From a virus: a DNA stretch of 26,165 nucleotides. The position numbers were made by a program, and so were the translations under genes. The stretch lies in the IMG/VR virus record IMGVR_UViG_3300023049_000221, positions 1 to 26,165 of that record; one strand, 5' to 3'. The notes beneath the pieces are model-generated. The model made no database searches. It was not told the DNA's origin and was given only the letters and a program-made list of their open reading frames with translations. This document shows positions 2,283 through 26,165 of this stretch, in pieces (the stretch's first letter is position 1; each line of letters begins with the position of its first letter).

Positions 2283-3262
2283 TATATATCCTCAGAATTT
2301 TTTGTTAACATAATTGAGCCTTTTGCATTTTTTAAAGTTGTTGCTGAGGTTACTTTAGCAACAACATATCTTGGACTTCCAGAGGCAACTGTATTGTTAC
2401 CTGTAAAAGTATTTGAATCAGGAGTTCCAGCAGAAACGGAGAAAGAACCCCCAGTGACTGCTACTCCACTTGCTGAGGTTTTATTAGCTGAAAGATAAAG
2501 TTCAATCGTTGCGGAACCTTCATCTGGATCATAGCTCCCCCCTGAAAGAGTTGAATCATAATCAATATATCCAATAACATAATCACCCTCAATTATTTTT
2601 CCAGCTAGAGACCCATTCTGAGGGTAAGTAACTGGAGTGTTTGTCAAACGAATGTTGTTTACTGTTTGGCTATTACCATCAAGCGTTGAAATTAGTTTTA
2701 CAAGAGGTAAATTTTGGACAATCCATTTGTTGATTGCAGTATCATAAAGTAAAATATAACTTTGACCACTAGAAATTTCACCAGAAGTTAAACTACGATT
2801 CCCACGGTCAACAATTTCATAAGGATTTCCGTTTGTTGTTTCTTCTAATGTTGGGGCAACTCCACAAGTCTTATCAAAGTTTACACGTATCGCTACACTA
2901 TCACCAATTGTCAAATCTGAATTTGTGAATTCATAAGCTGTTGATGTACCCGTAGTTGATGCAACAGGTAATTGAGCACCAACTACAGCCGCTTCAGCCG
3001 CTGTTTGGGCAAGTTCAGCCGCAACTACACTAGCATTTGCAGTTACTACATCAGCGTTTGTTAACACTACGTCAGCGTTTGTTAACACTACGTCAGCCGC
3101 TGTTGCATTTGCATTTGTAGTTGAAGTAGCCGCTGCATCTACTACTTGAGTTCCAACTGTTGCAACATCAGCAATGATTGCTGGAAACTCAGTTAAGTGT
3201 CCATAATTTAAAAACTCTGCCGCTGTATATGTATTTCCATTAATTGTTACTGGAAAGCTCAT
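2282..3262 (-). CDS. tail fibre / stalk protein with heptad repeats
   Basis: A 326-residue tail protein. Residues about 30-100 are almost pure Ala/Val/Thr/Asn with a 7-residue periodicity (units such as DVVLTNA, repeated twice exactly, then degenerate copies), typical of a trimeric coiled-coil stalk. After that come beta-rich segments: one resembling the collar-like YEFTNSDLTIGDSVAIRVNF region (about 110-135) and a C-terminal strand-rich domain (about 220-320). Seen: the repeat and composition change. Inferred: a homotrimeric fibre attached to the tail tip through the N-terminal domain (MSFPVTINGNTYTAAEFL). It overlaps the upstream gene by ATGA and the downstream gene by TAATG. It could also be a tip spike rather than a side fibre. 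Confidence 0.65.
   Translation of the reverse strand: MSFPVTINGNTYTAAEFLNYGHLTEFPAIIADVATVGTQVVDAAATSTTNANATAADVVLTNADVVLTNADVVTANASVVAAELAQTAAEAAVVGAQLPVASTTGTSTAYEFTNSDLTIGDSVAIRVNFDKTCGVAPTLEETTNGNPYEIVDRGNRSLTSGEISSGQSYILLYDTAINKWIVQNLPLVKLISTLDGNSQTVNNIRLTNTPVTYPQNGSLAGKIIEGDYVIGYIDYDSTLSGGSYDPDEGSATIELYLSANKTSASGVAVTGGSFSVSAGTPDSNTFTGNNTVASGSPRYVVAKVTSATTLKNAKGSIMLTKNSEDI
3051..3092 (-). repeat. two exact tandem copies of a 21-nt repeat in the fibre gene
   Basis: Positions 3051-3071 and 3072-3092 are identical 21-mers, each coding for one heptad (DVVLTNA, in phase). Degenerate units flank them on both sides. Exact identity at the DNA level, including third codon positions, indicates recent duplication in the stalk. 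Confidence 0.9.
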
Positions 3263-4407
3263 GTTAGTAATCCTCCTTGAACTTCTTCTATGATTGCACT
3301 AAAACCCATGTGAGAAAAATAGGCGTAAGTAAGTGAATTAAGTGATTGTAAAGTAGCTGTGAAACTACGTCTGTGTAAATTTTCTACATCATCTGGATCA
3401 AAAATGAAAAACATTTGTTTATTAATTCCTTGTATCCGCTGCATTTCTAAAGCTTGTGTTAAAGCTTCCGACTCAGGTAAGTGATCAATGCTAAATGTTA
3501 GCGTCCTGTAAGCTTGTTTTTGACTGTAGGATTTTTCACCACCCCATGACTTTTCAAATTCAGTGTCTGTTTGGTATTGAAAAGCAGCTCCGTATACTGG
3601 GTTGATTGAAGGTTGCCATCCTGGAGTTAAAAAGCAACGTGATATTGCAAAGTCACTAGGGTTTGTTGAATCAAAAAATTCATACCTTGCATATGTACCA
3701 ACAACAGCTTCCAATAGCATCGTATCAATAATTGGGAATTTTAAAGTTTGTCGTTCTTCTTCTGTTGTTTTACCATTCCAGTAACTTGGATGTTGGAATG
3801 GTAAACTTCCCCATTCATATATTCTATCAAAAATATCTTTTTGAGTGCTATCAAAAACAGGAGCTGAAAAATCTCCAGTGTTGCAACGAATTGTATCCCC
3901 AACTGATAAAGCACTTTGTACAGTAGCATTGTGAATGTCATTTGTAGCAACACTTGCTAAATTAATAACCCCAGTTGCACCCCCAGAGACGGTAAGTGTG
4001 GTGTTTGACTTATATAAAGTCTCACCAATTGTAAAAAAGTCACCTGAAACAACAGGGAGTGCAACTCCAACAGGGGCTTGAAAAGTTACACTTGTTGCAC
4101 CAATGCTTGCGTCAGCTCCAACAGTTGCACTATTACTAAAAGAAGGCGTGTTTGAAATTCTTAAGCGCCGCTGTCCTTCGATTGTTGAACTAGTACTTGG
4201 TATTGCCCCTAAAGAAATATCGCGTGGAGCGCCAAGATCAATATCAAACCATGTTGCTGAGTTTGAAGAGCCATCGGCAAGAGCAGGTAGGCTCAAACGA
4301 TCATCTTGTAAATTAGTGAGAGGTAGTTTCCAGTCACCACCAGTCAGCACCACATTAAAGAATGTGTTGTCAATATAGTTTGGAAACCCCATTATACAAT
4401 TACTCAT
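3259..4407 (-). CDS. tail tip protein (hypothetical, 382 residues)
   Basis: A tail tip protein placed between the hub-like gene and the fibre gene; not assigned to a named family. The N-terminal third has a jelly-roll-like pattern (ATWFDIDLGAPRDISLGAI) such as is found in carbohydrate- or protein-binding modules of distal tail proteins. The middle contains an insertion-like module with VSGDFFTIGETLY (about 115-135), and the C-terminal third (about 290-375) is denser and more conserved in character (YRTLTFSIDHLPESEALTQALEMQ), ending in a strand-helix pattern typical of tail assembly proteins. AGG is positioned 8 nt before the ATG at 4407, three bases downstream of the stop of the hub gene; an in-frame ATG at 4392 is the alternative. 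It overlaps the fibre gene by ATGA. The role in the tip is inferred from order. Confidence 0.6.
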   Translation of the reverse strand: MSNCIMGFPNYIDNTFFNVVLTGGDWKLPLTNLQDDRLSLPALADGSSNSATWFDIDLGAPRDISLGAIPSTSSTIEGQRRLRISNTPSFSNSATVGADASIGATSVTFQAPVGVALPVVSGDFFTIGETLYKSNTTLTVSGGATGVINLASVATNDIHNATVQSALSVGDTIRCNTGDFSAPVFDSTQKDIFDRIYEWGSLPFQHPSYWNGKTTEEERQTLKFPIIDTMLLEAVVGTYARYEFFDSTNPSDFAISRCFLTPGWQPSINPVYGAAFQYQTDTEFEKSWGGEKSYSQKQAYRTLTFSIDHLPESEALTQALEMQRIQGINKQMFFIFDPDDVENLHRRSFTATLQSLNSLTYAYFSHMGFSAIIEEVQGGLLT

Positions 4408-4410
4408 TTA

Positions 4411-6165
4411 TCAGCCTAGAACAATATATTTAATTTTTGATTTTCTTAAATTAATTTCTTTGCCAAGTATAACGGTTTTTTTACCAGAAGACAAATCAAA
4501 CCGACCATCAATTTGCAAAGTAACAATATCACCTAAGTTTAAAGGAGTTAAATCATAGGTTGAAAATTCAAAAAACTGTCTGTCAATCTGTCTTAAATTT
4601 TCTTGCCTAGTTAGCTCAGTTTGGGTATCTGTTTCATTAACAAAATGAGTATCAATTTCAAATATTGGAGCGTTTGGGTGTTTTCTAGAAACTGCTTCAT
4701 TTTCAACACTAGCTAATTCCCTATACTTAGTGTTGTATAGGAGTTGGTCACTTGTTCCAATTACAGAACCTGCAAAATTATTATCAGCAATTACCTTGTA
4801 GTTTTTCTTGTAGTTTAGTTTGATTTGCTTTGGAGGTACTCCTTGGCCGCTGTCTTTACTTTTAAAAGTAGAAAGGTCAATAACAGAATCTTGCTTAAAA
4901 GTTTTCACACTTGTTCCAGAGTCTGGGCTTTTGAAAATTCCAACTCGGAGTTTGTTATCAGTATCAGAAATTAAGTAACCTCCAATTCCACTCATAATTT
5001 CAACTGCAAGTTTTTGAACGGTACTAGAGTCCTCAACATAGAGCTCTTGTGAGCTACTGTTATCAGAGTCAACATCTGTAAAAGTTGAGTTTACATAATC
5101 ACTTGTTGTGAAACCAATTCTTTCAATTAAGTTTTTTACAATTGCAGCACCCGTCAGCGAACTTTGTGTAAAATTTGCTGTCACCTCCCCAGCAGGAGCA
5201 CCTGCTAATCTAAAAAGACCTTCAGCTTTACAAGTTACAAATTTACCAGAAGCAATTGTTGCAGCTTGCAATGCTGCAAGATTTGCAAAGTCACCACTTG
5301 TTCCAACAGTTGTGTCTAAAGATTTACCCAGTCCTTTGTCAAGAACATCAAGATCACCTAAAGTTGTAATTGAAGAAGTTGTTCCATCATAATCAAAATT
5401 CAAAGCATAAATTCTAGTAGCTTCATTTACCAAAGCAGGTTTTGCATTTAAAATAGGACCTCCAAGCCCAAAGGGCTTAGGCTGACCTTTGATTCCGTCA
5501 GCACTACCCTCAATTCCAGTTGAACCTACATTTGTACCTAAGAAAAGCTCTTTTTGGGCTTGAACTCCCAGGTCGTCTAAACGGTCAGCAATAGAAAAAA
5601 CAACTTCACTGAATTTAACTTCAGCGTATATAACAGTTCCTGCAAAAACATTTACTGTAGGAACAGCTTCTTTCTGGTTTGAAATTTGCTTGATACGAAT
5701 ACTACCTTTTGCAAAACCCAGTTTACGAACAAAGTCCCAGTATCCGTCTTTGTTATTAACTTTTATTGTACCTTTTGTAGATTTACTCACACCAAAAGTA
5801 GTACCAACTGAAAACATGTATTGTTCTATATTTCCAGGATCAACAATATCACCTCTGTATTCAGTTACTCCAGCAACATGACTAGAGGTTCCTATATTTA
5901 ACGTTCTCGCACCATCAAGTACCCAAGTAGCATAAGTTCCTGACCCAGTTGAACTTGTTACGTCTAAAACCACATTATTTTCAACAACAGTTGTTACAGT
6001 ACCAGTCAGGTAGTTGCTGTCATTATGTTTAGCAATAACTTCCATACCTTTTACAAAAGGTTGGCTACTCAAAAGAGTAAATGCTTTTGTACCTGTTCCA
6101 ACGGACAAGCTTGTTGTGCTGTCCCCTTGTACATTCGTATCAATTTGAATTAATGTAACTGTCAT
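4411..6165 (-). CDS. tail hub-like protein (584 residues)
   Basis: Large protein directly downstream of the tape measure, the slot of the tail tip hub. The first ~90 residues look like an added beta domain (TFTLL-type strands, VLDVTSSTGSG). From about residue 95 onward is a core with motifs seen in related siphophage tail hub proteins: FAGTVIYAEV, a DRLDDLG segment, GQPKPFGLGGPILNAKPALV, EGLFRLAGAPAGEVTANF, and a C-terminal strand domain ending DIVTLQIDGRFDL. Hub proteins form the closing ring under the tube, contact the tape measure and open on receptor binding. It starts with an ATGA overlap with the tape measure stop, so translation is coupled. Seen: motifs and position; inferred: hub function. 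Confidence 0.65.
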   Translation of the reverse strand: MTVTLIQIDTNVQGDSTTSLSVGTGTKAFTLLSSQPFVKGMEVIAKHNDSNYLTGTVTTVVENNVVLDVTSSTGSGTYATWVLDGARTLNIGTSSHVAGVTEYRGDIVDPGNIEQYMFSVGTTFGVSKSTKGTIKVNNKDGYWDFVRKLGFAKGSIRIKQISNQKEAVPTVNVFAGTVIYAEVKFSEVVFSIADRLDDLGVQAQKELFLGTNVGSTGIEGSADGIKGQPKPFGLGGPILNAKPALVNEATRIYALNFDYDGTTSSITTLGDLDVLDKGLGKSLDTTVGTSGDFANLAALQAATIASGKFVTCKAEGLFRLAGAPAGEVTANFTQSSLTGAAIVKNLIERIGFTTSDYVNSTFTDVDSDNSSSQELYVEDSSTVQKLAVEIMSGIGGYLISDTDNKLRVGIFKSPDSGTSVKTFKQDSVIDLSTFKSKDSGQGVPPKQIKLNYKKNYKVIADNNFAGSVIGTSDQLLYNTKYRELASVENEAVSRKHPNAPIFEIDTHFVNETDTQTELTRQENLRQIDRQFFEFSTYDLTPLNLGDIVTLQIDGRFDLSSGKKTVILGKEINLRKSKIKYIVLG

Positions 6166-9100
6166 GATTGTCGCTTAACTGCCTCAGTATTTTCTTCAGT
6201 AGCTTCAACTTGTCGTTCTAACATCTGTTCAAGACGCTTGTAACCTTCTTGACTAACTCCAACCATTGCTCTCATTTCACGTTCAAGATTTGCTAAACGT
6301 TGTTCAACTTCAGCTCCATTTTCCAATGGAATTACTTTACCCCCACTGCCTCCAGCTTGGAAAATTTCTGGTCGAGTTTCACCCACCATAAACAAACCGT
6401 TACCCAAAACATCGCCACCTTTGTTGAAGCCAGGAATACCTAAAGAGCGAGCAGCTTGAATGAACGCTGCATTTGCTGCTGGATTACTTTCAAAGAACAA
6501 GCTTCGTCCACCAACTCCGTCAGCACCAGGAGCCCCAAGAGAGTCAAATACAGGTAAAATTTGTGATAACTGATCTTCACCAACTAATCCAGAGTTTATT
6601 CCTTGAACCAAAGTCTCGTTAGCATTCATCTTTCCAACTTGCAAAGCTTGGTTGATAATTGAACTAACTCTTTCTTGGTTTGTTAAAGAATCATTCAAGA
6701 TTGTTGACATATTGTTTATAGCATCAATTTCTTCTTGAGCTAACTCAACTAATTTCTGTTGAGTTGTTAATTGAGCGTCAGCTGAATTTTTTGCACTTTC
6801 CAAAGCTTCTTGAACAGTGTTGAAATCTTGTACATATTGGTCAGTAGAAGCAAAATACCCCCTACTGATTTCCAAGAACTGTGAACCAAGTGAATCTAGT
6901 TCACCCATTGCACCAATGTCGCCAGTTGAAGCGCGCCCTGCTGTTGCTAAGAAGTTGGAGCGCGCCTCTGCTAAACGCTGCTCTGTTGTGAGTGGGCTTG
7001 TAGAATCTAAACGTAAATTTAAAATTGCGCTTTTAAGTGATGAACTTATATTTGAGTAACTTACAACAAGGCGTTCCGCTGCTTGGGCTTCTGACTGAAT
7101 GAGAGATAGACGTTCAGAGTAGGTATCCCTAACAATGCTCTGTATAAGTTTTTCTTGCTGAACTTGGTAACTTTTATCAAGGAATGTTGTATCAAGCCCT
7201 ACAGAGTTAAATTCACTCAATTGGTTTTGGTAATTATCATACAATCCTCTAAACTGGGTCACTCCAGGAGCAGCAGCATTAAAATAAGAGGTTCTTGCAG
7301 TTTTTTCAAGAGCGTCCTTTGTTTGTTGTAGAGTTTGAACTCGCAAATCCTCAACACGCTGAATGTCTTCTGCAATAAACCCATATTCAGTCATTTTTGA
7401 AATCATTTCTTGAAAGCGTTCATTAATTCCATCAATTGCAACTTCTGTTTGTGTAAAAGTTTCTACAGTCTGTTCTTTAAACATTGCATCAAAGAGCCCA
7501 ATGAAGTCTAAGCGTTCAACTGCTCCATTCAAATCTGTGAAGTCAATTTGATCAACTACTGTAGCAATGTTTGCAGGTAACTCTTCAAGCTGTTCCCGTA
7601 TTCTGTTAACAATTGTTTCAAAAAGAATAGCTGGGTCTCTCTCTACATATTCTTTTTCTTGGTCATCAAATTGGATGTCATAAGAATCACGATTACCAAT
7701 TTTGACTTTGAAGTTTTCAAAGTCTGCTTTATCATTTGTTACTTGTTCAAAAATATTTGCAACAGTTGAACCAATTTTAGCAAAGTTCAATGAAGCATCT
7801 TGGTTTTCTTGGCTGAACTTCTTCCCACTTAAACCCCCTTGGTCAACAACAGCACCAGTACGATTAACTTGTGTCCACTGCCCCTTGTCACTGGGCTTTC
7901 CTCCAAAAAGACCACCGAGAGCAGAACCCCCAAAGGCGGCTAATGAAAAAGCAAGAGGTCCAGTAAACCCTGCTAAAGCTGCAATTGCTGTTCCTGCTGC
8001 GGAACCAATATCTGAATATTCACCTGACAAGCCCAAGAGATCAGAAGCAAGGTTACCAACCATACCCGCTCCAATATTAATTGGGTTAATTGCATTACTT
8101 GCTCCCCCAAAAATTGTACCATCAGGAACTATTGGTCCAGATACCCCAGCAGGTAAATAAGTTGCACCTGCTGCTGTTGCACTTGTTCCTGTATTAAAAA
8201 CAGAATACCCAACTGTATCAAAAACACTTGCAACACTACTTGGTAGTATTGTATCAGCTAGTGCACCACCTCCACTTGTAAACATATCATAGATGCCTGA
8301 ACCTTGTTTTGCCATGTCTACAAGGTTATTCACACCAAACTCATTCCCAATCTGGTTTGTCAGTTGACCACCCAAACCAATAGTTCCTGCAATTTTACCA
8401 ATTATTGGAACAATAATTGGTTTGGCCAAAGCTAGAGCAGAAATATTTGCAACGGAACCTCGTATAACATCAACAATTCTATCACCGTAGTCTTTCCAAG
8501 AACCTAAATCACCAGCAAGAAAATCATCAATGGAACTACTAAAGATATCAAAAATATTTTCAGCAGCACGAGTAACAATGGTTGAAACTTTTGAACTTTC
8601 TTCCCCATACTCTTTGGTTGCTTTTGTTGCTTCTTTTGTTGCTTCTGTTGTCTGTTCCAGAGCTCCTGTAACACCATTATTATCATTGTTTAACTTTTCA
8701 ATAAGGGTTTGTAATTGTACATTGGCATCTTCTGTAGCACTAGAAAACTCATCTGTATCTTTTGCAGCTTGTTGATTTTGTTTTGAAAGTTCTAAAAGAC
8801 GCCTGTCAGTTGCTTGGTCAATAGTTTTGTTCCTTGCTTCCAATTCATCCCGTGAATTTTCTATTGCTTTTGTAAATGATGTTGTAGTTAACTCAAGGAG
8901 AGCATCTCCAGTTGCATTAAAATTCACAGTACTAGAAAAAGGATTTGTAATAAAACTTGTGAGGTCTGATTTAAAAGCATCAAGGACACGTTTTGCATCT
9001 CCAAAAGATTCACTAAAAGTTGTGGAAACCATTCTACCAACATGACCAAACCAACTACCAAGCTTTTGCATTTCTGCGCCAACAACAACACCAATTGCAA

Positions 9101-10625
9101 CAAATGAGTTCATAGCATCTGTTGCTGAACTTACTTTATTGCGTAAAAAGACATAAGCTACTATTGCTGCTCCAAGTGCTAAAGGACCAGCAATAACTGC
9201 TGCAATTTTACCCATACCCGCCATTGCTGAAGCTGCAACAACATGAGCAGTTGCAACCCCCCCAACTGCTGCTGTAAGACGAGACATAGCAATGAAATTT
9301 CCTGCTGCTGCTATTGTGTTTCTTACTATTGCCGCTGTAGCCAAACCAAAAGATATAACAAGACGGCTACCTACAACAATTGACAAAGCTTCAATAATGA
9401 TTAATAGGTTATCAAAATTGTCAATTAAAGTTTTTGTTGCGGGTATAATTACTGTTAGGACTGCATCCCCAATTGTAATAGCAAGATCAACAAATTTCCC
9501 TCTGAGTTGCCCAAACACAAATTGAGGGGTACTTGCCATCTTATTGAAAGCTTCCTCAGTTTCACCTGCTTTGGAACCCATATCTTCTAAAATTTGTTTG
9601 AAATCTTCTCCAGCAGCTCCACTCAAAGCAAGAACAGGGATCAACGCTTCAACACCCCCAAATAATTGTGAAAGTTTCTCTGTTGAACCTCCTGTTTTCT
9701 CTGCAATTTCTTGCATGAAAGCTGCAAAACCTTTTGATTCAAGCCCAGCAGCATTAAAGTCAATCCCAAGTTGTTGGGCAAGATCGCTAGCTTCTTTTGT
9801 TGGTTTTGCAATTGCTGCTAAAGCTGCTCTCATACCTGTAACAGCTTCAGTCGTTTTAATACCACCCTTTGTCAAAGCAGCAATACCTGATAAAAGCTCT
9901 GCTAGGCTTGTATTGGTTTGTGCAGCAAGAGGAGCAACCTTACCAATACTTGCACTGAGCTCTCCAATCGTTGTTTTACCTGCTCGCATTGCAACAAATA
10001 GAGCATCCGAAACATCTGTAGCTGAACCAACACGATCACCGTAAGAATTCATAATTGTTGTTAGTCCATCAGCAGCAATACTGACCTCAGTTACACCACC
10101 AATAGCAAGTTTATTTGCTGCAACTAAAGTTGATGTTGCTTCAGCCGCTGATGATGCACCTGCTGAAATAATTTGATATGCTGCTTTTGCCTGCTGCGTG
10201 GGCAATTGTCCAAAGTCTTTTGAAGTTTGTCGAATACTTTTACTAAGTGTATCAAACGCAAAAGTATCTCCAACAAGTGTTTTAACTTCTGCAAGAGAAG
10301 TTGAGTATTTAACTGCCTCACGAACACTTGCTCGCATAGCAAAGCCTGCTCCAGTAAGTCCTACAGTAAAAGCAGCTAAAGCAAATCCAGTTGATTGAAC
10401 TAAAGAACGTACGGTGGTAAATCGAGACGAGATGCCACCCAGTGGACCATCAATGGCCGCAATACCTGAGCCAACACCGCGAAACGAAGTTTCAAGGTCT
10501 TTGTTTGTATTTTTTGTTTGGTTAGCTTTAGAACGAATATTTTCTAAAGACCGAACAGCTTTGCGTTCTCCAAGTTCAGCATTTTTTGAAGAGATAATAA
10601 CGTCAACTGGAATATTAATCGTCAC
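6162..10625 (-). CDS. tail tape measure protein (TP901-type)
   Basis: The longest gene in the window (1487 residues). It sets tail length and is ejected with DNA. The N-terminal 400 residues match the TP901 tape measure pattern: FGQLPTQQAKAAYQIISAG, GGVTEVSIAADGLTTIMNSY and a GIAALTKGGIKTTEAVTGM segment. Hydrophobic helices follow at about 395-500, then long Gln/Glu/Asp-rich coiled-coil regions, a Gly/Ala-rich segment (about 850-910) and a C-terminal FNKGGDVLGNGLFMVGE motif with a closing coiled coil. No peptidase or transglycosylase motif was seen. The start is GTG with AGGAG eight bases upstream, overlapping the end of the GT reading frame by 11 nt. At about 0.15 nm per residue, the length predicts a tail of roughly 220 nm (inference). 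Confidence 0.95.
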   Translation of the reverse strand: MTINIPVDVIISSKNAELGERKAVRSLENIRSKANQTKNTNKDLETSFRGVGSGIAAIDGPLGGISSRFTTVRSLVQSTGFALAAFTVGLTGAGFAMRASVREAVKYSTSLAEVKTLVGDTFAFDTLSKSIRQTSKDFGQLPTQQAKAAYQIISAGASSAAEATSTLVAANKLAIGGVTEVSIAADGLTTIMNSYGDRVGSATDVSDALFVAMRAGKTTIGELSASIGKVAPLAAQTNTSLAELLSGIAALTKGGIKTTEAVTGMRAALAAIAKPTKEASDLAQQLGIDFNAAGLESKGFAAFMQEIAEKTGGSTEKLSQLFGGVEALIPVLALSGAAGEDFKQILEDMGSKAGETEEAFNKMASTPQFVFGQLRGKFVDLAITIGDAVLTVIIPATKTLIDNFDNLLIIIEALSIVVGSRLVISFGLATAAIVRNTIAAAGNFIAMSRLTAAVGGVATAHVVAASAMAGMGKIAAVIAGPLALGAAIVAYVFLRNKVSSATDAMNSFVAIGVVVGAEMQKLGSWFGHVGRMVSTTFSESFGDAKRVLDAFKSDLTSFITNPFSSTVNFNATGDALLELTTTSFTKAIENSRDELEARNKTIDQATDRRLLELSKQNQQAAKDTDEFSSATEDANVQLQTLIEKLNNDNNGVTGALEQTTEATKEATKATKEYGEESSKVSTIVTRAAENIFDIFSSSIDDFLAGDLGSWKDYGDRIVDVIRGSVANISALALAKPIIVPIIGKIAGTIGLGGQLTNQIGNEFGVNNLVDMAKQGSGIYDMFTSGGGALADTILPSSVASVFDTVGYSVFNTGTSATAAGATYLPAGVSGPIVPDGTIFGGASNAINPINIGAGMVGNLASDLLGLSGEYSDIGSAAGTAIAALAGFTGPLAFSLAAFGGSALGGLFGGKPSDKGQWTQVNRTGAVVDQGGLSGKKFSQENQDASLNFAKIGSTVANIFEQVTNDKADFENFKVKIGNRDSYDIQFDDQEKEYVERDPAILFETIVNRIREQLEELPANIATVVDQIDFTDLNGAVERLDFIGLFDAMFKEQTVETFTQTEVAIDGINERFQEMISKMTEYGFIAEDIQRVEDLRVQTLQQTKDALEKTARTSYFNAAAPGVTQFRGLYDNYQNQLSEFNSVGLDTTFLDKSYQVQQEKLIQSIVRDTYSERLSLIQSEAQAAERLVVSYSNISSSLKSAILNLRLDSTSPLTTEQRLAEARSNFLATAGRASTGDIGAMGELDSLGSQFLEISRGYFASTDQYVQDFNTVQEALESAKNSADAQLTTQQKLVELAQEEIDAINNMSTILNDSLTNQERVSSIINQALQVGKMNANETLVQGINSGLVGEDQLSQILPVFDSLGAPGADGVGGRSLFFESNPAANAAFIQAARSLGIPGFNKGGDVLGNGLFMVGETRPEIFQAGGSGGKVIPLENGAEVEQRLANLEREMRAMVGVSQEGYKRLEQMLERQVEATEENTEAVKRQS

Positions 10626-12818: not shown

Positions 12819-13043
12819 CTAAACTTGTTGTGTAAATCCCTCAGGAGCCTCCAAAGAGAAAACAACATCTGTAAATTCAATTTGTAAGTTTGTTTTGTGT
12901 TGTTCTGTAAGCATTGAACTTCCGACAAGATAATGGGTTTCACTCATAAGAGGAGTAATCTGAATTGTTTCCACAACTTCAGAAAAATAAGCTAAGCGAA
13001 ATTCAGTATCAATTATTTTAGGCCATATAACAAATATTGTCAT
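12819..13043 (-). CDS. hypothetical protein, 74 residues
   Basis: Not recognised. The protein begins MTIFVIWPKIIDTEFRL and includes ETIQITPLMSETHYLVGSSML and a C-terminal IEFTDVVFSLEAPEGFTQQV, suggesting a small alpha/beta or all-beta fold; no membrane segment or known motif. ATG at 13043 was chosen because AGGA lies 9 nt upstream; the ten extra codons up to 13073 overlap the end of the decayed LamG gene. It sits directly after that gene's TAA (2 nt gap) and 23 nt before the -35 box of the tail tube promoter. The LamG remnant's last codons contain the ribosome binding site, so the two were probably acquired together. Confidence 0.6.
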   Translation of the reverse strand: MTIFVIWPKIIDTEFRLAYFSEVVETIQITPLMSETHYLVGSSMLTEQHKTNLQIEFTDVVFSLEAPEGFTQQV

Positions 13044-13044
13044 C

Positions 13045-13763
13045 TTAAAAATTCCTGTTTTGTCGCGTTTCAATAAACGCAGTTAATGCTGCTGCCTTGG
13101 TATCATCAAGATATTCATTGCCCATACTTGCGTGATAGAAGCGATCTGTCGTATCAGAGGTCGGAAATAGCTGCATCGCCACTTGCGCCGCCTCAGTACC
13201 ACTTGTGAAAACCGCCGCCGCATCAACTCGCGTTTCATCATTAATCCAAAACTCATTTGTTGGGCTGAAGCATCATAACTTAGTATGCCTATGCAGTCTG
13301 TGTCATCGGGGAACCATGTAGAACCACTATGAAAAATGTTCATTGCACCGCTATTCTGTTGCTGCACGTTAAATTCAGGACTACCACCCCCAGCCTCACG
13401 AATAAGAATCCCATTTGTGTTGGTACGTGTCTGTACCAAAATATGTTGATCCAAGGCCACCATGCTTAAACGCGAAAGCCATCCACCAATCTTGTGTAGA
13501 AGCAGCTTAATGTAAATTAGCAATTAAAGATGTGTTGCCACCTGCAATCACAAACTTGTCGCTACCATCACTAGAGAAGTAAGCAGTAGTTTCACCAGCC
13601 GTTCCATTGAAAGTTGGGTCGTCTGTTGAAACAGAATCTGTTTGACCAAGCAGTTATTGTCTGTGCTGTTCCATCATAACTTGCCGAAAGAGCAACATCT
13701 AAATCAATTTTGGAACTAGGAACAACTTCTGAAATCTTTCGATTACGGTCTTTAGTTTGGAAC
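13045..13763 (-). pseudogene. decayed LamG/concanavalin-like domain gene
   Basis: Reading the minus strand through frame changes gives one continuous LamG-type protein: SASYDGTAQTITAW, then TDDPTFNGTAGETTAYFSSD, DKFVIAGGNTSLIANLH, a TAA, QDWWMAFAFKHGGLGSTY, TNTNGILIREAGGGSPEF, IGILSYDASAQQMSF, WINDETRVDAAAVF and a closing FYHASMGNEYLDD...ETRQNRNF. Lesions: a frame break near 13640-13655 (probably with lost sequence), a nonsense codon at 13507-13509 (TAA where Lys is expected), one extra T in the run at 13438-13441, and one missing T in the run at 13248-13251. No intact start is visible; the 5' end is a copy of scaffold sequence. A 147-codon open frame (13083-13523) is just a mosaic of this gene. 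GC is about 47% for 13081-13260 (hand count) against about 33% in nearby tail DNA, suggesting transfer. Such domains are found in phage fibres and adhesion proteins. Sequencing error could explain the two homopolymer lesions but not all four. Confidence 0.78.
13712..13763 (-). repeat. partial copy of scaffold gene sequence
   Basis: Positions 13731-13763 are identical over 33 nt to 20210-20242 in the scaffold gene and are in the same reading frame (FQTKDRNRKIS). Similarity continues (ISEVV versus ISDVV, then PSS versus PSA) if 30 nt of scaffold, ten codons between two TTGTTC direct repeats, are removed. The tail terminator stop codon lies inside this copy. Confidence 0.88.
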
Positions 13764-19824: not shown

Positions 19825-20646
19825 TTATTTTATAGCAGGTTTTAGTCCACCAATAGTTGTACCAGCAGAGATAGCCAACTGTTGGGCTCGTGCAGGGTTT
19901 TCACGATAAACACGACCTTGCTCACTCATGTTCCATGCTGAACTGCTCCAAGGATTACCAGAACCACCAGAACCACCAGAACCACCAGAACCACCGCCAC
20001 CTTGGCTTTGCGGCCACCAGTGAGGTCGTTTCTGTTGCATTTCAGTCAACCAAACAGTTGGATCAATTCCTGGAGTAACACCAACTCCATCTTTAGCCAT
20101 TACTGTTCCATCTTCAGACAACTCAAAGCTACGTTCTGCAATCATTAGAACGTCTTCAACAGCACTAGGAACAATTTTTTGTTCTGTTGCTGCTTGTCGA
20201 ACAACATCCGAAATCTTTCGATTACGGTCTTTAGTTTGGAACTCTCCAATAGTTTGGGCTTGTTCCCCACTTACTGCTTTCAATTGGTCACGTTCGCGCT
20301 CAAGTGGAGCAATACGGGACTTGATACGAGTCTCAACCATTTTGTTGAGTTTTTCATCATCAATTTTATCACCAGAAACAGCTTCCAACTCTTCAAAGCG
20401 ATCAAGCTTATCAAGAATTTCAGTTGGAGAAAGGTTGAGGCTACGAATACCAGCGTACTCTTCTAGTTTAGTTTTCGTTTTCTTGTGATCATTGCGTTCC
20501 ATATTCAGAGCATTTTGAACAGCAGAAACATCATTGTCAGTTCTAATACCTGTTACGTCAAGTTGGAACTTACCATTAACTTCTTTGTAGTATGTGTGTA
20601 GTGAAGCGTCCACTTCATCGAGTGAATCAATTAGAAATTTTAACAT
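19825..20646 (-). CDS. capsid scaffold protein
   Basis: A 273-residue protein with the expected layout: acidic N-terminal part (FLIDSLDEVDASLHTYY), a long Lys/Glu coiled coil (about residues 40-150: ALNMERNDHKKTKTKLEEYAG, RIAPLERERDQLKAV), a helical region, and a conserved C-terminal capsid-interaction segment NPWSSSAWNMSEQGRVYREN then ARAQQLAISAGTTIGG. It is an internal scaffold for prohead assembly, absent from mature heads. Just before the C-terminal segment is a (GGS)n linker (about 217-229), unusual. Part of this gene (20160-20242) recurs at the end of the tail terminator gene. ATG with AAAGGA upstream, driven by a TTGCAA/GATAAT promoter. Confidence 0.85.
   Translation of the reverse strand: MLKFLIDSLDEVDASLHTYYKEVNGKFQLDVTGIRTDNDVSAVQNALNMERNDHKKTKTKLEEYAGIRSLNLSPTEILDKLDRFEELEAVSGDKIDDEKLNKMVETRIKSRIAPLERERDQLKAVSGEQAQTIGEFQTKDRNRKISDVVRQAATEQKIVPSAVEDVLMIAERSFELSEDGTVMAKDGVGVTPGIDPTVWLTEMQQKRPHWWPQSQGGGGSGGSGGSGGSGNPWSSSAWNMSEQGRVYRENPARAQQLAISAGTTIGGLKPAIK
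19961..19996 (-). repeat. 9-nt tandem repeat coding Gly-Gly-Ser linker
   Basis: Four tandem copies of the plus-strand unit gaaccacca (last copy with one change), at 19961, 19970, 19979 and 19988. It codes for a GGSGGSGGSG linker in the scaffold protein. Such short repeats can expand or contract by replication slippage. Confidence 0.92.
20160..20242 (-). repeat. scaffold segment duplicated at 13712-13763
   Basis: Donor-like copy of the sequence that reappears after the tail terminator. The intact scaffold version contains ten codons (RQAATEQKIV) between two TTGTTC repeats that are missing from the other copy. Base identity is complete over 20210-20242. Confidence 0.88.
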
Positions 20647-20738: not shown

Positions 20739-21926
20739 TTAAAACTCAAGTCCAGCATCAATGAAGGCTTCTTTGTGTTTGCTCGCAAGTTGTTTGAGTG
20801 AAAGTTCACCTCCTTTTTGGTCAGTGAACTTGTCAAGAGTCAAACCACCTTTCCGGAACAACTGTGCTTTTGTTTTCCCAAGTGTATCATCTTGAAAACT
20901 GTTGCTCTGTTTTGTAAGCCAATCTTGGTAGCTCGTTTTTGCTGGCACTTGTCCAGTGAGTTCACGTACTCGTTTTCGTTTATATTCATCATAAGACCCT
21001 TTGTGACCTTTTGGTAATGTTGCGCGGTTTTTTGCTGATAGTCCATTTGCTTTGTTATACTCACCAACAAATTGTTTTTCATTGAAAGGTTTTGCTGGGC
21101 GTTCACCTAAAACTTTCCCATCAATTACAGGTACACGCAATGAACGACAATTAAAATGAAGTGGAGGAACTGGTCCTTTCCCAATTTCAAATTTCTTACC
21201 GTCGTTGCCAGCACAAACAAGAGTCGTTCTGTTATCAAGTGTAGCAACATAGAGTTCGGATTCATAAAGGTCTTGATTCTCTTTGTAGAATTCAGAACGT
21301 GCAGCTCCTGCTAAACTGTTTATAGCAGTACGAGTTATTGCTTGGGCATTGTTACGAGTGAGCTGGGTAATTCCATCTACACCTTTTTTTGCAGTAGTTC
21401 CAACAATGCGTCGAGCAATTCTTTGTGAACTTTCACCTTGGATCATTCCAATTAAAATTTGACTTTCAATTCTGTTAACATCCGCTACTGCAATATCCCG
21501 CGCCCAGCTTTTAAGAACACGACCTTCAAAAGGGTGGTTAGTTACAAGCCCACGGAGGGTGGCAACAGTTGGGAGTGCAGTTTCAAGAACCACAGGTGAA
21601 ACTGCACTGAGCATAGCAGCAGCACCAGCAGCCTCATCCTGAACTAACTCTGTAAATTCAGAAAGCCACATTTTTTCAGCATCTTTCCATGCTTTGCCTC
21701 GTAGATTGCGGATGTAAGCTTTTAGAAGTTTGTATTTCTTTAGTGACCTCGGGGACAAACCTTTTGTACCTGCTAAATCATTCCTGATTTTTGCAGCTAG
21801 GTCAGTTTCAGTTGCGTTTAAAAGGGTGTTTATTTTGTTGCGGACTTCACTTGAATATCTCATCAAATAAGTTTGATGTCTAATCAAAGCATCAAAATAT
21901 TCCTCATTGACTTTCTTCTTGAGCAT
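20739..21926 (-). CDS. MuF-like head morphogenesis protein
   Basis: A 395-residue minor head protein. The MuF domain is recognisable at about residues 140-265: helices SWARDIAVADVNRIESQILIG and NAQAITRTAINSLAGAARSEFY, then YVATLDNRTTLVCAGNDGKKF and GPVPPLHFNCRSLRVPV with Cys238, His257 and Cys260 in the usual places. MuF proteins bind portal and are needed early in head assembly; some copies enter the capsid. The C-terminal 120 residues (KTSYQDWLTKQSNSFQDDTLGKTKAQLF in part) form the usual tail of this protein, with no toxin domain. ATG with TAGGA eight bases upstream, overlapping the portal stop by 23 nt. Confidence 0.9.
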   Translation of the reverse strand: MLKKKVNEEYFDALIRHQTYLMRYSSEVRNKINTLLNATETDLAAKIRNDLAGTKGLSPRSLKKYKLLKAYIRNLRGKAWKDAEKMWLSEFTELVQDEAAGAAAMLSAVSPVVLETALPTVATLRGLVTNHPFEGRVLKSWARDIAVADVNRIESQILIGMIQGESSQRIARRIVGTTAKKGVDGITQLTRNNAQAITRTAINSLAGAARSEFYKENQDLYESELYVATLDNRTTLVCAGNDGKKFEIGKGPVPPLHFNCRSLRVPVIDGKVLGERPAKPFNEKQFVGEYNKANGLSAKNRATLPKGHKGSYDEYKRKRVRELTGQVPAKTSYQDWLTKQSNSFQDDTLGKTKAQLFRKGGLTLDKFTDQKGGELSLKQLASKHKEAFIDAGLEF

Positions 21927-23364
21927 CTTCTATTCCTACGCCTTCAAGCTCTGGTGTTTCTTCTTCAATAGCTGCAAGTTCTTCTTCATAATTCAGCTCC
22001 GTTAAACCTTTGTTCTGCATGTTTAGGTGGATTGTACGTTTACTAATTGGTGCTCCAAGACTTTTTGCAGTCATGTATTCAACAAGTTCTTTTGCTGCAA
22101 TTTTGTCATCAACAAAGTCAAGATTTGGGGTAACAACAACATCATCAGGATTTGCACCTACCCACTCAGCAGCGAATCGCAAGATTTTTTCTAAACCTCC
22201 AGCACCAGCTAAAGCAATTTGAGTTAGTGTTGCTGTCTGGGCTGAAATGCGTTTTGTAAGTGCTACACCACTTTCTTTTTGTTTGCTACGAGTGTCAATT
22301 AATTGTCCTGCTTTGTTTGAGGCAACTGTTTTATCATTGTCTAACGATTCACGCTGTTCTGTAAGTCCAGCTGAGTTTACTCCAATGAATTTTGCATCAC
22401 CTCCAGCAGGTAGCACTAAAGCTGCTCCTGCTCCAACACGAACCGCTTCATCTTTACTGCTACCTATAACAACTAACGTATCTTGGCCTTGTAGGTGCAA
22501 TGACTGACGATAATCAGCTTCTCCACGGTAGATTGTAAGTCCAAGGCGGGCAAGCCCAACGAGTGGAGGGGAATCAGGGGATGCAACAATGTCCTTTGAA
22601 TTGATAAAAGTGAATGGAATTTTGTCTAATGTTTTGCCTGCAATAAGTGGAGTTTTTAAAGAGTTTTCATCAAACATTGCATTTACATCTTCAAAAACGC
22701 CCACACTATAAGCAGCAGTACCTCTTTTTTCATTGGCAAACACTTCACCATAAACAAGAGTACGGTATTTATTTTTCCATTCCCAATTGAAATCAGCATT
22801 GCGTTGATATTCACTTTCATCAAGAACAACAAGATTTAAGCTGTCTTGAGCTACCTCATTGCGCTGTCCATCATCCCAGTTCAAGATATTTTCAGCTTCA
22901 TAAAGTGCAATGTAAGGTATTGTACCAAAAGGTTGGGGCGTTGTTGGTAAATCTAAAAGTAAACCTACCCTGCCCGTGATTAGCTGCTGTTCATTGATGC
23001 GACGCAACAGTTGAAATAAATTTTCATTCTGAATTGTTGCATTTTCAAACATAGCCTCTAGTTGCTTTGGGAGTTCAATAACTGGAGGCTTTGACCACAT
23101 GATTCCCATGTATGTTTCTACAGCTGTCTTCATGAAGTCGTGGAATACTGCTTTTTCTTTGTAGGCTTCGTAGGCTTGAAAGCCTATCGAATTTGTGTTC
23201 AAAGATAAACTACTAAGCATTCCATCAGCGCGGTGACCTGCTGTTGGCGACAAATAGGTAGTACCTTTTGACTTAACAATTCGTTCCCCTTGATAAGAGT
23301 CACGACAGAGGACCCAGTCTTGGTCAAATTCAGAGTATTTTGGGTGTTTACTGTTTATTGCCAT
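21904..23364 (-). CDS. portal protein (DUF4055 type)
   Basis: A 486-residue portal subunit; twelve copies form the DNA channel at one capsid vertex. The N-terminus KHPKYSEFDQDWVLCRDSYQGERIV (in parts) then TTYLSPTAGH is the signature of DUF4055 portals; also AVFHDFMKTAVETYMGIMWSKPP, LITGRVGLLLDLPTT, and YRGEADYRQSLHLQGQDTLVV. The C-terminal domain ends in an acidic tail (EEELAAIEEETPELEGVG). The start at 23364 keeps the conserved N-terminus. There is no Shine-Dalgarno sequence; instead a TATAAT box ends 6 nt before the ATG, so the mRNA is predicted to be leaderless. The next gene upstream on this strand is terL, separated by two plus-strand genes. Confidence 0.92.
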   Translation of the reverse strand: MAINSKHPKYSEFDQDWVLCRDSYQGERIVKSKGTTYLSPTAGHRADGMLSSLSLNTNSIGFQAYEAYKEKAVFHDFMKTAVETYMGIMWSKPPVIELPKQLEAMFENATIQNENLFQLLRRINEQQLITGRVGLLLDLPTTPQPFGTIPYIALYEAENILNWDDGQRNEVAQDSLNLVVLDESEYQRNADFNWEWKNKYRTLVYGEVFANEKRGTAAYSVGVFEDVNAMFDENSLKTPLIAGKTLDKIPFTFINSKDIVASPDSPPLVGLARLGLTIYRGEADYRQSLHLQGQDTLVVIGSSKDEAVRVGAGAALVLPAGGDAKFIGVNSAGLTEQRESLDNDKTVASNKAGQLIDTRSKQKESGVALTKRISAQTATLTQIALAGAGGLEKILRFAAEWVGANPDDVVVTPNLDFVDDKIAAKELVEYMTAKSLGAPISKRTIHLNMQNKGLTELNYEEELAAIEEETPELEGVGIEDAQEESQ

Positions 23365-23370
23365 GGATTG

Positions 23371-23399
23371 ATTATAAGCTTAGGAAAATTAAATTGCAA
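23371..23399 (-). promoter_or_regulatory. promoter TTGCAA-N17-TATAAT abutting the portal ATG
   Basis: -35 TTGCAA at 23394-23399, perfect -10 TATAAT at 23371-23376, spacer exactly 17 nt. The portal ATG (23364-23362) begins 7 nt after the last base of the -10 box, which is where transcription normally starts, so the transcript should begin at or next to the A of ATG. Confidence 0.75.
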
Positions 23400-23501
23400 A
23401 TAATTAAAGATAGTGGTCGCGTTCTGTTGAACAAAGCCTTATATTAAGAATATGGACAGCAAACAAGTCCACCACAGAAACAAAGATAGAAAGAAATTAA
23501 A

Positions 23502-23738
23502 ATGCAAAAACCATTTGTAACAGTTCAAGCTTATAAAGCAATCTACAATTTCACTCGTGAAGAGTGCTTAGAGCAACTTGCTAACTGGGAACAGTGTAGC
23601 CAAGTCGACAACCTAACAAGATGGCTTTTTTGGAGATTCATTCGTGATGGAAAACCAAAGTGCATGGCAAAAATCATGACACAAACTATTCTTGAGTTTG
23701 GTAGCAGTGTTCTTATTGATGTAAGACGGGAGGACTAA
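23502..23738 (+). CDS. hypothetical protein, plus-strand cassette gene 1 (78 residues)
   Basis: Not recognised. The protein starts MQKPFVTVQAYKAIYNFTREE and contains four Trp/Arg-rich turns (ANWEQCSQVDNLTRWLFWRF), three cysteines (residues 20, 29 and 54) and a helical C-terminal half (AKIMTQTILEFGSSVLIDVRRED). No membrane segment or known motif. It is one of only two plus-strand genes in the window and lies divergent from portal. The region upstream has a GA-rich stretch (GATAGAAAGAAATTAAAATG) as a weak ribosome binding site. It is followed directly by the second gene (TAA then GTG), so the pair is translationally coupled. Codon structure and tight packing support it as a real gene; function unknown. 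Confidence 0.65.
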   Translation: MQKPFVTVQAYKAIYNFTREECLEQLANWEQCSQVDNLTRWLFWRFIRDGKPKCMAKIMTQTILEFGSSVLIDVRRED

Positions 23739-24017
23739 GTGCTAATAAAGAGGTATGAATTAACAGGTTATGAAGACGGTGAAGTGTCTGACATTTGTGC
23801 AAAACTAAATAAATTAGGTGTTCCATTTGGTACCCAAGAGAAAGAATTTGGTAAAATCATTGTAATTGATTGGCCTAGTGAAAAACATCTAAGAACTTTC
23901 TATGTTTGGTTTGTGGACAATGGTCAAGTAGTTTGGGATGAAGAGTTTACCCTGCAAGAAATTGAAAAGCGTTATGAAGATTTTAATCTTGAAGCAATTT
24001 GTGGTCAACTTAACTAA
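23739..24017 (+). CDS. hypothetical protein, plus-strand cassette gene 2 (92 residues)
   Basis: Not recognised. An acidic alpha/beta protein: MLIKRYELTGYEDGEVSDICAKLNKLGVPFG (in parts) shows a strand-helix start, then KIIVIDWPSEKHLRTFYVWFVDN and a Glu-rich C-terminal helix (FTLQEIEKRYEDFNLEAI). The GTG start follows the preceding stop with zero spacing and has GGGAGG five to ten bases upstream, so coupling is strong. It ends one base away from the terL stop codon on the other strand, leaving no room for a terminator between the converging genes. The pair may be a moron acting in host takeover or defence; nothing in the sequence shows which. Confidence 0.68.
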   Translation: MLIKRYELTGYEDGEVSDICAKLNKLGVPFGTQEKEFGKIIVIDWPSEKHLRTFYVWFVDNGQVVWDEEFTLQEIEKRYEDFNLEAICGQLN

Positions 24018-24018
24018 A

Positions 24019-25524
24019 CTAAATCATTCCAATTGTAGTAGTCGACTTGCCGCGCTTAGACATTGAACGGACACGATAGCGGACTTCATCAGCAATGTGA
24101 TCCTCAGCATCTGTGTCAACATCATCCATATCTTTTGGGCAGCGCGGCAAAACAGGAACAGTCCTTAGGAACTGTTGGCAATTCTTGAAAATAAATAATC
24201 CTGGCTTTTCACGAGGCATTCCTTCAACTGGAATTGAGGCTTTCAACATTTCACGCATTTTCTCCCACCCTGTTTTACGGCTTCCTGGACTTTTGTCAGC
24301 AGGTACAAAATAAACACCGCTGTAAGTTTGACCTCCTTCAAGGCGAACATCATCTTCCATATCGTCTCCAATGCAATTACCGTTCTCCACTTTGTAAATA
24401 GAGGAGTCAGCTGGTCCTGCTTTACATAAATTCCGGATGTTCATTTTCATTTCACGTTCAACAATACCCCTAGCAATTTCACTTGCTAACAACCTGAGTC
24501 CCTCATTAGGCTTGCCATTCCAACCATACCACTCTGCAATACGAAACAAATCACCCCGAACAGTAGAATGCCATGTTCCATCCTCTGCTTGGTAATCACT
24601 TCCATCACTTTCAGCCCACCAACCTACACTGAATGGAGCAGATGAACCCCAGTCAAACGAACGATCAATTCTCCAGTTAGTTGGAATATTAAAACGTTCT
24701 TTGACATGAACTTTAGGTGACCAAACATCGTCAAACATGCCTCCAGCAACAATGTCCCAGCTTCCATAAAGCCATGCTTGTTTCTCAGCATCATTTCTTG
24801 CAGCACTTGCTAAACGCTCTAAATAGTCTGGGTCTGCTTCAAGTAAGATTGTGTTTTCATTAATGTCACTAAACAGAGCAAGGCGTGGCGGCTGTTTATA
24901 ACTTTCTTCATCAAAGGGTGTCCAGTCAACAATTCCTCGGCTTCCTGGAAGATTGAATCTATGCTTTACCCAATTGTGTCCAGGACCGTAGGGATTTGTT
25001 GTTGAACGTACACGAATAATTTTAGCAATTTCAGGGTCTGAAGAGCGACATGTAGACATCATTCGTTTATATCCTCCTGGAGAATGCCAATTGCATAATT
25101 CCTCCCAACCCATCCAAGGATATTCGTGACCATGGTAATTCCAATAATCATCTTCACGAAGAAATTGGCGCAATAAAAGCTGCTCTCCTCCTGGGAAACT
25201 CCAATAATGCTCGCTTGCATTGTAGCGCGCTTCAGGATAAGCTTGGTAAAACCATTTCTTACTTTTTGTTATGACATCAGTAAGCTGCTTATATGTCTGT
25301 CTGAATAGAATACCTTTCCAAGATGCTCCATATCCTTTTCCAACATCAGACAAGAAATCCATCAACAGTGTATCGGTTTTGCCTCCACCACGTGTTCCTT
25401 CTCCTAATACTTCAAAAATGCATTTTGATTCTAAAAACTGTTCTTGATATCCTGGGAGCCAATGCCATTTAACATTTTTGAGACAAGTAGGAGGTTTAAG
25501 AATCACCTCTTTGTTGTTTCTCAT
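24019..25524 (-). CDS. terL: terminase large subunit
   Basis: Packaging motor ATPase and nuclease, 501 residues with the ATG at 25524. Walker A is GEGTRGGGKT (41-50, Lys49), Walker B-like strand PWMGWEE (136-142) with the catalytic Glu at its end, and coupling motif RSTTNPYGPGHNW (173-185). The RNase H-like nuclease domain has Asp291 (RSFDWGSS), Asp373 (AGPADSS) and Asp475/Asp479 (EDHIADEVRY). It binds DNA brought by TerS, docks on portal and cuts genome units. GGAAAG is six bases before this ATG; a TTG at 25545 would overlap terS more and is less likely. The start overlaps terS by 29 nt. The gene is separated from portal by two genes in reverse orientation. Confidence 0.95.
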   Translation of the reverse strand: MRNNKEVILKPPTCLKNVKWHWLPGYQEQFLESKCIFEVLGEGTRGGGKTDTLLMDFLSDVGKGYGASWKGILFRQTYKQLTDVITKSKKWFYQAYPEARYNASEHYWSFPGGEQLLLRQFLREDDYWNYHGHEYPWMGWEELCNWHSPGGYKRMMSTCRSSDPEIAKIIRVRSTTNPYGPGHNWVKHRFNLPGSRGIVDWTPFDEESYKQPPRLALFSDINENTILLEADPDYLERLASAARNDAEKQAWLYGSWDIVAGGMFDDVWSPKVHVKERFNIPTNWRIDRSFDWGSSAPFSVGWWAESDGSDYQAEDGTWHSTVRGDLFRIAEWYGWNGKPNEGLRLLASEIARGIVEREMKMNIRNLCKAGPADSSIYKVENGNCIGDDMEDDVRLEGGQTYSGVYFVPADKSPGSRKTGWEKMREMLKASIPVEGMPREKPGLFIFKNCQQFLRTVPVLPRCPKDMDDVDTDAEDHIADEVRYRVRSMSKRGKSTTTIGMI

Positions 25525-26041
25525 ACTTTTCTTTCCACTGTTCAACAGTCAAACCCGTTGGAACTGCAATTGCACCAACAGGCTCTCCTTTTGTTGTGAA
25601 GTCAATTTGTGCTTTGTCTTGGTAACCTTCTCCATGGCGTTTTAACATTGCTAAACGTAAAGGAGTTTCAAAAACTCGTTTTTCTTGAATCAAGTTTCCG
25701 TCTTTGTCATAGTGTAAACTCGTGTGTCCTTCAATGGCTTCTTTTTCTAAACGCTGGACAATGCGTGTTGAACGCATTTTCATAACTTCTTCCTGTGCTG
25801 CTGCAAACTCTAAGTCATCTTCTAAATGTCTATAAAGTGTAACTGGTGCAATGTCTGCTGCTTTAATTGCAAGCATCACTTGTCCATGTTGTTCCAAGAA
25901 TTGTAAATAGACACCTTTGCGGTCGTCTGTAAATCTTTGTAGTTTGTAGGTCTTCTTCCGCTTTGGTGAGTCACACAAGTCATGTCGCCAATTTGTTGGA
26001 TCAACAGTCGGGAAAGAATCTGGTTGGTCTTCTTTTATCAT
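25496..26041 (-). CDS. terS: terminase small subunit
   Basis: DNA-recognition subunit of the packaging terminase, 181 residues. Residues about 43-85 (VYLQFLEQHGQVMLAIKAA then VTLYRHLEDDLEFAAAQEEV) form a helix-turn-helix of the 'phage terminase small subunit' type, followed by a helical oligomerisation region (RIVQRLEKEAIEGHTS) and a C-terminal segment (FTTKGEPVGAIAV, LTVEQWKEKYEKQQ) that would contact TerL. Gene order terS-terL supports the call. There is no clear Shine-Dalgarno sequence before the ATG; a GC-rich palindrome-like sequence CGCGAGCGCG lies 4-13 nt upstream. Confidence 0.85.
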   Translation of the reverse strand: MIKEDQPDSFPTVDPTNWRHDLCDSPKRKKTYKLQRFTDDRKGVYLQFLEQHGQVMLAIKAADIAPVTLYRHLEDDLEFAAAQEEVMKMRSTRIVQRLEKEAIEGHTSLHYDKDGNLIQEKRVFETPLRLAMLKRHGEGYQDKAQIDFTTKGEPVGAIAVPTGLTVEQWKEKYEKQQRGDS

Positions 26042-26084
26042 TATCGCGCTCGCGTTAGAAATTTTTCATTGCTATCAGAGTTTC

Positions 26085-26113
26085 AGTATAACCTTCCAAG
26101 CCCAAAAGGGCAA
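26085..26113 (-). promoter_or_regulatory. putative promoter TTGCCC-N17-TATACT before terS
   Basis: -35-like TTGCCC at 26108-26113 and TATACT at 26085-26090 with a 17-nt spacer. The spacer holds CTTTTGGGCTTG, shared with the element before the capsid gene; GCCCTTTTGGGC can also form a 4-bp hairpin. Predicted leader about 37 nt. The remaining bases to the window end (26114-26165) show nothing recognisable. Confidence 0.55.
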
Positions 26114-26165
26114 GCGTCAACCTATCCCTCACGTTTATTTCAGTAATTACAACAGCTTAACCTAA

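Follow-up and report, generated by a model that had tools for sequence, protein, structure and literature searches.

The classical moron is flanked by its own promoter and terminator, and its base composition is unlike that of its neighbors. In the available part of the report on AXL1, this Stenotrophomonas phage and other Pamexvirus members carry a YbiA operon on the opposite strand inside the morphogenesis module, with a promoter reported 58 bp upstream (PMC9206674). The accessible portion of a study on Bacteroidetes phages places reversed bS21 genes within the region of terL, portal, prohead protease and MCP (PMC9723584). Among named phages of the Queuovirinae and Mesyanzhinovviridae, R7M, ECP2304, JenP1 and YuA have a terL and a portal related to those of the window, the whole 26165-base virus record analyzed here, and the same gene order. 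Unlike in the window, terL and portal are contiguous in these four phages, and none of the nine examined named phages with a related terL or portal, from 634 with a terL match, has an insert between them.

The window carries two small genes, g1 and g2, at this junction, opposite in strand to the virion morphogenesis module. As far as the available text on AXL1 goes, its operon is similar in consisting of small opposite-strand genes of mostly unknown function that interrupt the virion module. However, that operon is placed downstream in the module, with the portal and minor head genes ahead of it and the major head gene behind it, and its six to seven genes include a YbiA/NADAR homologue; the likeness drawn here is one of arrangement (PMC9206674). 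The bS21 genes likewise lie on the reverse strand inside a packaging and head block, whereas they encode a known ribosomal protein, are reported to be expressed late and belong to large phages, with no homology noted (PMC9723584). No report of reversed genes in the terL-portal slot was found in the literature searched, where subscription journals are thinly covered. The arrangement has published precedents and, judged by their sequences, g1 and g2 are two new families, present in none of the libraries searched.

Layout of the reversed cassette

Based on their family matches, the genes on both sides are firmly identified as the terminase large subunit gene terL (24019..25545, minus strand; phrog_979, E 2e-21) and the portal protein gene (DUF4055; 21904..23364, minus strand; phrog_145, E 2e-105; PF13264). 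The two plus-strand open reading frames that an earlier note on this DNA had described between them are present in both the sequence and the ORF list: g1 (23502..23738, plus strand, ATG start, 78 aa) is divergent from portal, and g2 (23739..24017, plus strand, GTG start, 92 aa) is convergent with terL. The coupling geometry was also as described, with the TAA of g1 followed directly by the GTG of g2 (0 nt between), and the g2 stop codon (24015-24017, plus strand) is separated by 1 nt from that of terL (24019-24021, minus strand). Every long gene-like ORF elsewhere in the window is on the minus strand and the terL/g2 junction holds no terminator-like site, both in agreement with the note; the sole terminator-like site in 23200-24200 falls within terL, at a level expected by chance.

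When 23365-24018 was shuffled 2000 times with its dinucleotides preserved, an adjacent plus-strand pair of ORFs, each of at least 78 aa, occurred in none of the shuffles, so the pair is more than chance would give. Considering that a single ORF of at least 92 aa was obtained in 140 of 2000 such shuffles, ORF length alone is weak evidence. Codon-usage scores were dropped as evidence for genes, some of 12 antisense control ORFs scoring equally high. The GC content averaged over codon positions is about 39% in g1, 34% in g2 and 38% in the other genes.

In another part of the window, 12944-13751 (minus strand) has no intact long gene and contains pieces that read like a structural, lectin-like protein with shifted frames. 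Here, 44 nt (13720-13763) are 95% identical to 20199-20242, which lie inside another window gene. This region resembles a gene that has been broken or has recombined, or the result of assembly errors.

Coding and expression signals

The Shine-Dalgarno sequence of g2 (GGGAGG, 23728..23733, plus strand) is located inside the end of g1 and, at -10.3 kcal/mol, is the second-strongest among the genes scored. The g2 protein is acidic (pI 4.5), as the earlier note had stated, and shows no match above chance in Pfam, PHROGs, PADLOC or NCBIfam; PDB sequence searches returned chance matches only. A scan of viral contigs with g2 found one contig, from the same virus.

The first protein had been called basic in the same note, but it is near neutral, with 11 K+R against 10 D+E and a pI of 7.7; it contains 3 Cys and 3 Trp. 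The Shine-Dalgarno sequence of g1 is weak (-1.5 kcal/mol), and its protein has no match above chance in Pfam, PHROGs, PADLOC or NCBIfam. Same-virus copies excepted, no g1 homologue was found in viral contigs, in named phages at E 1 or in the surveyed loci including the sister virus described below, and the viral contig scan found a single contig, from the same virus. The predicted g1 model is all-helical with low confidence (pLDDT 51), and it was discarded as evidence because it was too poor. Since no relative was found, the support for g1 consists of its frame, the overlap of its end with the g2 Shine-Dalgarno sequence and the shuffling test on the ORF pair.

The 137-nt intergenic leader between portal and g1 (23365..23501) would have to hold the cassette promoter. 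No plus-strand sigma-70-type promoter was found in it at 9/12, in a scan that leaves phage-specific promoters aside, and no leader motif clearly common with the rest of the window was found. The RNA folding of the leader is ordinary (z -0.76), and Rfam gave 0 matches in 21500-26165. On the minus strand, a promoter-like TTGCAA-17-TATAAT (23371..23399) lies just before the portal ATG, as a consensus match only, with the hit total near the shuffle expectation. The portal ATG has no clear Shine-Dalgarno sequence (-1.6 kcal/mol) and the TATAAT stands 7 nt before it; a leaderless or almost leaderless portal mRNA is possible. Compared with the classical moron, the window cassette shows no promoter match, no terminator at its junction and a composition like that of its neighbors. 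For these reasons, the strict definition of a moron does not apply to it.

The sister virus and the wider terL-portal slot

Same-virus copies aside, the nearest terL relative among the viral contig matches listed is IMG/VR contig 3300017782_007107, denoted as L004, with 69% identity in terL and 57% in portal. In the terL tree, L004 and the window form a sister pair (SH-aLRT 99). The terL-portal slot of L004 spans 3.48 kb and holds nine ORFs counted as genes and five tRNAs (Gln, His, Leu, Pro and Trp), all opposite to terL. Its first gene beside portal (10002-10304, minus strand, reversed, 100 aa) encodes a homologue of g2 with 29% identity over 79 residues. The E-value of this match varies by setting, being 1e-8 in pairwise BLASTP, 1e-6 without composition correction and 3e-4 across all compared loci with composition correction; the Smith-Waterman score is 92 versus a maximum of 56 in 5000 shuffles. 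Considering the same place, the same orientation and the sister position in the terL tree, common descent of the two proteins is likely. This comparison is the strongest evidence for g2, which, given also its strong Shine-Dalgarno sequence, is very probably a real gene. The earlier note had proposed synteny in relatives as a check and a lack of frame conservation as grounds for rejection; g2 passes, since the position and reversed orientation of its L004 homologue match those in the window and the frame is conserved.

When the two g2 sequences were aligned and compared with viral contigs, the matches were the same-virus contig and L004 only. There was no match to the alignment among genome contigs, and none to g2 or its L004 homologue among named phages at E 1. 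The AF2 model of g2 built from the two sequences (mean pLDDT 63) has a beta-alpha-beta-beta-alpha core at residues 1-66, which deserves moderate trust, and none is placed in the model beyond it. These are the first five of the six ferredoxin-like elements (beta-alpha-beta-beta-alpha-beta). Compared with the PDB, the model resembles many ferredoxin-like and PII-like proteins, with a best Z of 8.0 over 64 residues; since values up to this level are common for such models, no function of g2 follows from the fold matches. Foldseek against viral structures gave 0 matches at E 1e-3.

While the L004 cassette shares slot, orientation and g2 with that of the window, it differs in its 3.5 kb length, other genes, five tRNAs, internal promoter-like motifs and lack of g1. 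A scan with its 169-aa protein found its own contig only. The palindrome-like motif CTAAAANNNATTTTA has 12 matches in L004 versus 0.01 expected, in nine places after overlapping plus and minus matches are merged (repeats at 2891-3329, 7938-7974, 8477-8512, 9217-9231 and 10332-10347, twice in tandem 21 nt apart). It stands before three reversed transcription units and at the end of a fourth, and also between the primase gene, which follows a gene for a Cro/C1-type HTH protein, and the small genes preceding terS. For two of these reversed units, the motif overlaps a TTTACA-17-TAGTAT-like sequence, as read by eye. The motifs are likely operators of an undescribed regulon. Since those of the reversed genes also stand beside the primase block, we infer a repressor-type, non-late control of the L004 reversed genes. 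The motif is absent from the window and from all other compared loci except copies of the L004 contig, so this control cannot be carried over to the window. A single in-frame stop, at codon 32, interrupts the L004 portal gene (10415-10510), although the remainder aligns at 57% identity, and the L004 assembly may therefore hold errors.

We surveyed the slot in 118 deduplicated loci from 187 rows, the window included, keeping the best 80 loci of the terL scan, so the survey is a sample. Among the matches listed, the median terL-portal distance is 65 nt, and it exceeds 150 nt in 21 and 500 nt in nine of the 118 loci. The window cassette thus interrupts genes that are contiguous in its relatives, as in the nine named phages. 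Reversed genes occupy four of the nine slots longer than 500 nt, namely those of the window, L004, L093 and L170; this count covers slots above 500 nt and not those of 150-500 nt, and the content of L118 and the strand of L120 lie outside it. In L093, six reversed ORFs each follow a GGAG-type ribosome site. In L170, a phage region of a Lentisphaerae MAG, the reversed gene (5989-6927) encodes a 312-aa protein with a DUF2806 match, which also scores 28.5 bits against Abi_alpha, just below the curated cut-off of 29. The last reversed stop codon overlaps the terL stop in L004, L093 and L170, compared with the 1-nt gap in the window. Three other inserts lie on the same strand as terL: that of L156, a gene of 414 aa in L008 (4897-6141), which matches HTH weakly and whose product reads like a metallophosphoesterase, and a GIY-YIG endonuclease in L119 (3863-4513); the terL-portal distance of L118 is the same as that of L119. 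The terL tree omits eight of the 118 loci, those with a short terL, including L118, L120 and L156. The reversed genes of L093 and L170 belong to two other lineages. Since L170 sits on a long branch and the tree does not resolve L093, they are probably, not certainly, separate acquisitions.

Explanations for the cassette

We favor, with somewhat more confidence than doubt, the view that the cassette is a reversed accessory, moron-like operon at the terL-portal junction, which has its own expression and encodes small non-virion proteins acting on the host. The virus itself would be a relative of Queuovirinae and YuA among the siphoviruses. The 137-nt leader, in which cassette and portal meet back to back, would contain a promoter for a plus-strand transcript giving both proteins by coupled translation, and the timing or control of the cassette would differ from that of the packaging genes. 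The products would be dispensable for assembly and may serve in takeover of the host cell or in counter-defence. The earlier note had likewise described small unrecognised genes in a reversed slot, as good candidates for host takeover, counter-defence or superinfection exclusion, or for a toxin-antitoxin-like pair; the reversed accessory slot recurs in L004, L093 and L170, and the DUF2806 and near-cut-off Abi_alpha matches of L170 fit host conflict, while the toxin-antitoxin version was not supported. Two small coupled genes, the second acidic, would suit such a pair, but neither has a match in Pfam, PHROGs, NCBIfam or PADLOC, and g2 occurs without g1 in L004, the sole relative found, so we consider it very unlikely.

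A back-to-back promoter could also serve portal and the reversed genes jointly while virions are being made, with g1 and g2 aiding late translation or assembly as proposed for the reversed bS21 genes, for which the accessible text gives a precedent with late expression (PMC9723584). The divergence from portal and the promoter-like site for portal in the common leader are consistent with this. However, the operator-like motifs of the L004 reversed genes are common with the primase-side block and not with head genes, and no virion or translation domain was found in Pfam or PHROGs; late helper functions thus seem unlikely. A decaying insertion, in which g1 and g2 would be what is left, free of selection, of a larger cassette like that of L004, would agree with the far smaller cassette of the window and the weak signals of g1, but is made quite improbable by two intact, tightly packed frames and the strong Shine-Dalgarno sequence before g2. 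Convergent genes without a terminator could mean that the reversed transcript, antisense to terL, tunes expression of the packaging gene and the proteins are incidental. Yet the g2 protein sequence is conserved, at 29% identity, and other genes make up the 3.5 kb of the L004 slot, and we give a mainly antisense role hardly any credence.

Returning to the reversed accessory operon, a broader version is that several phage lineages have independently used the terL-portal junction as a recurrent docking site, in which reversed host-conflict and tRNA islands with their own repressor-type promoters were compacted until the last stop overlapped that of terL, g1 and g2 being two new counter-defence families; we put this forward tentatively and think it unlikely. 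The L004 cassette adds a concrete regulon candidate, with a repeated operator-like motif both before reversed genes and beside primase. If the reading as a reversed accessory operon is right, the terL-portal gap would be a simple address at which unknown genes of host interaction could be sought across this large group of siphoviruses, and a scan for opposite-strand ORFs in this gap would need no homology.
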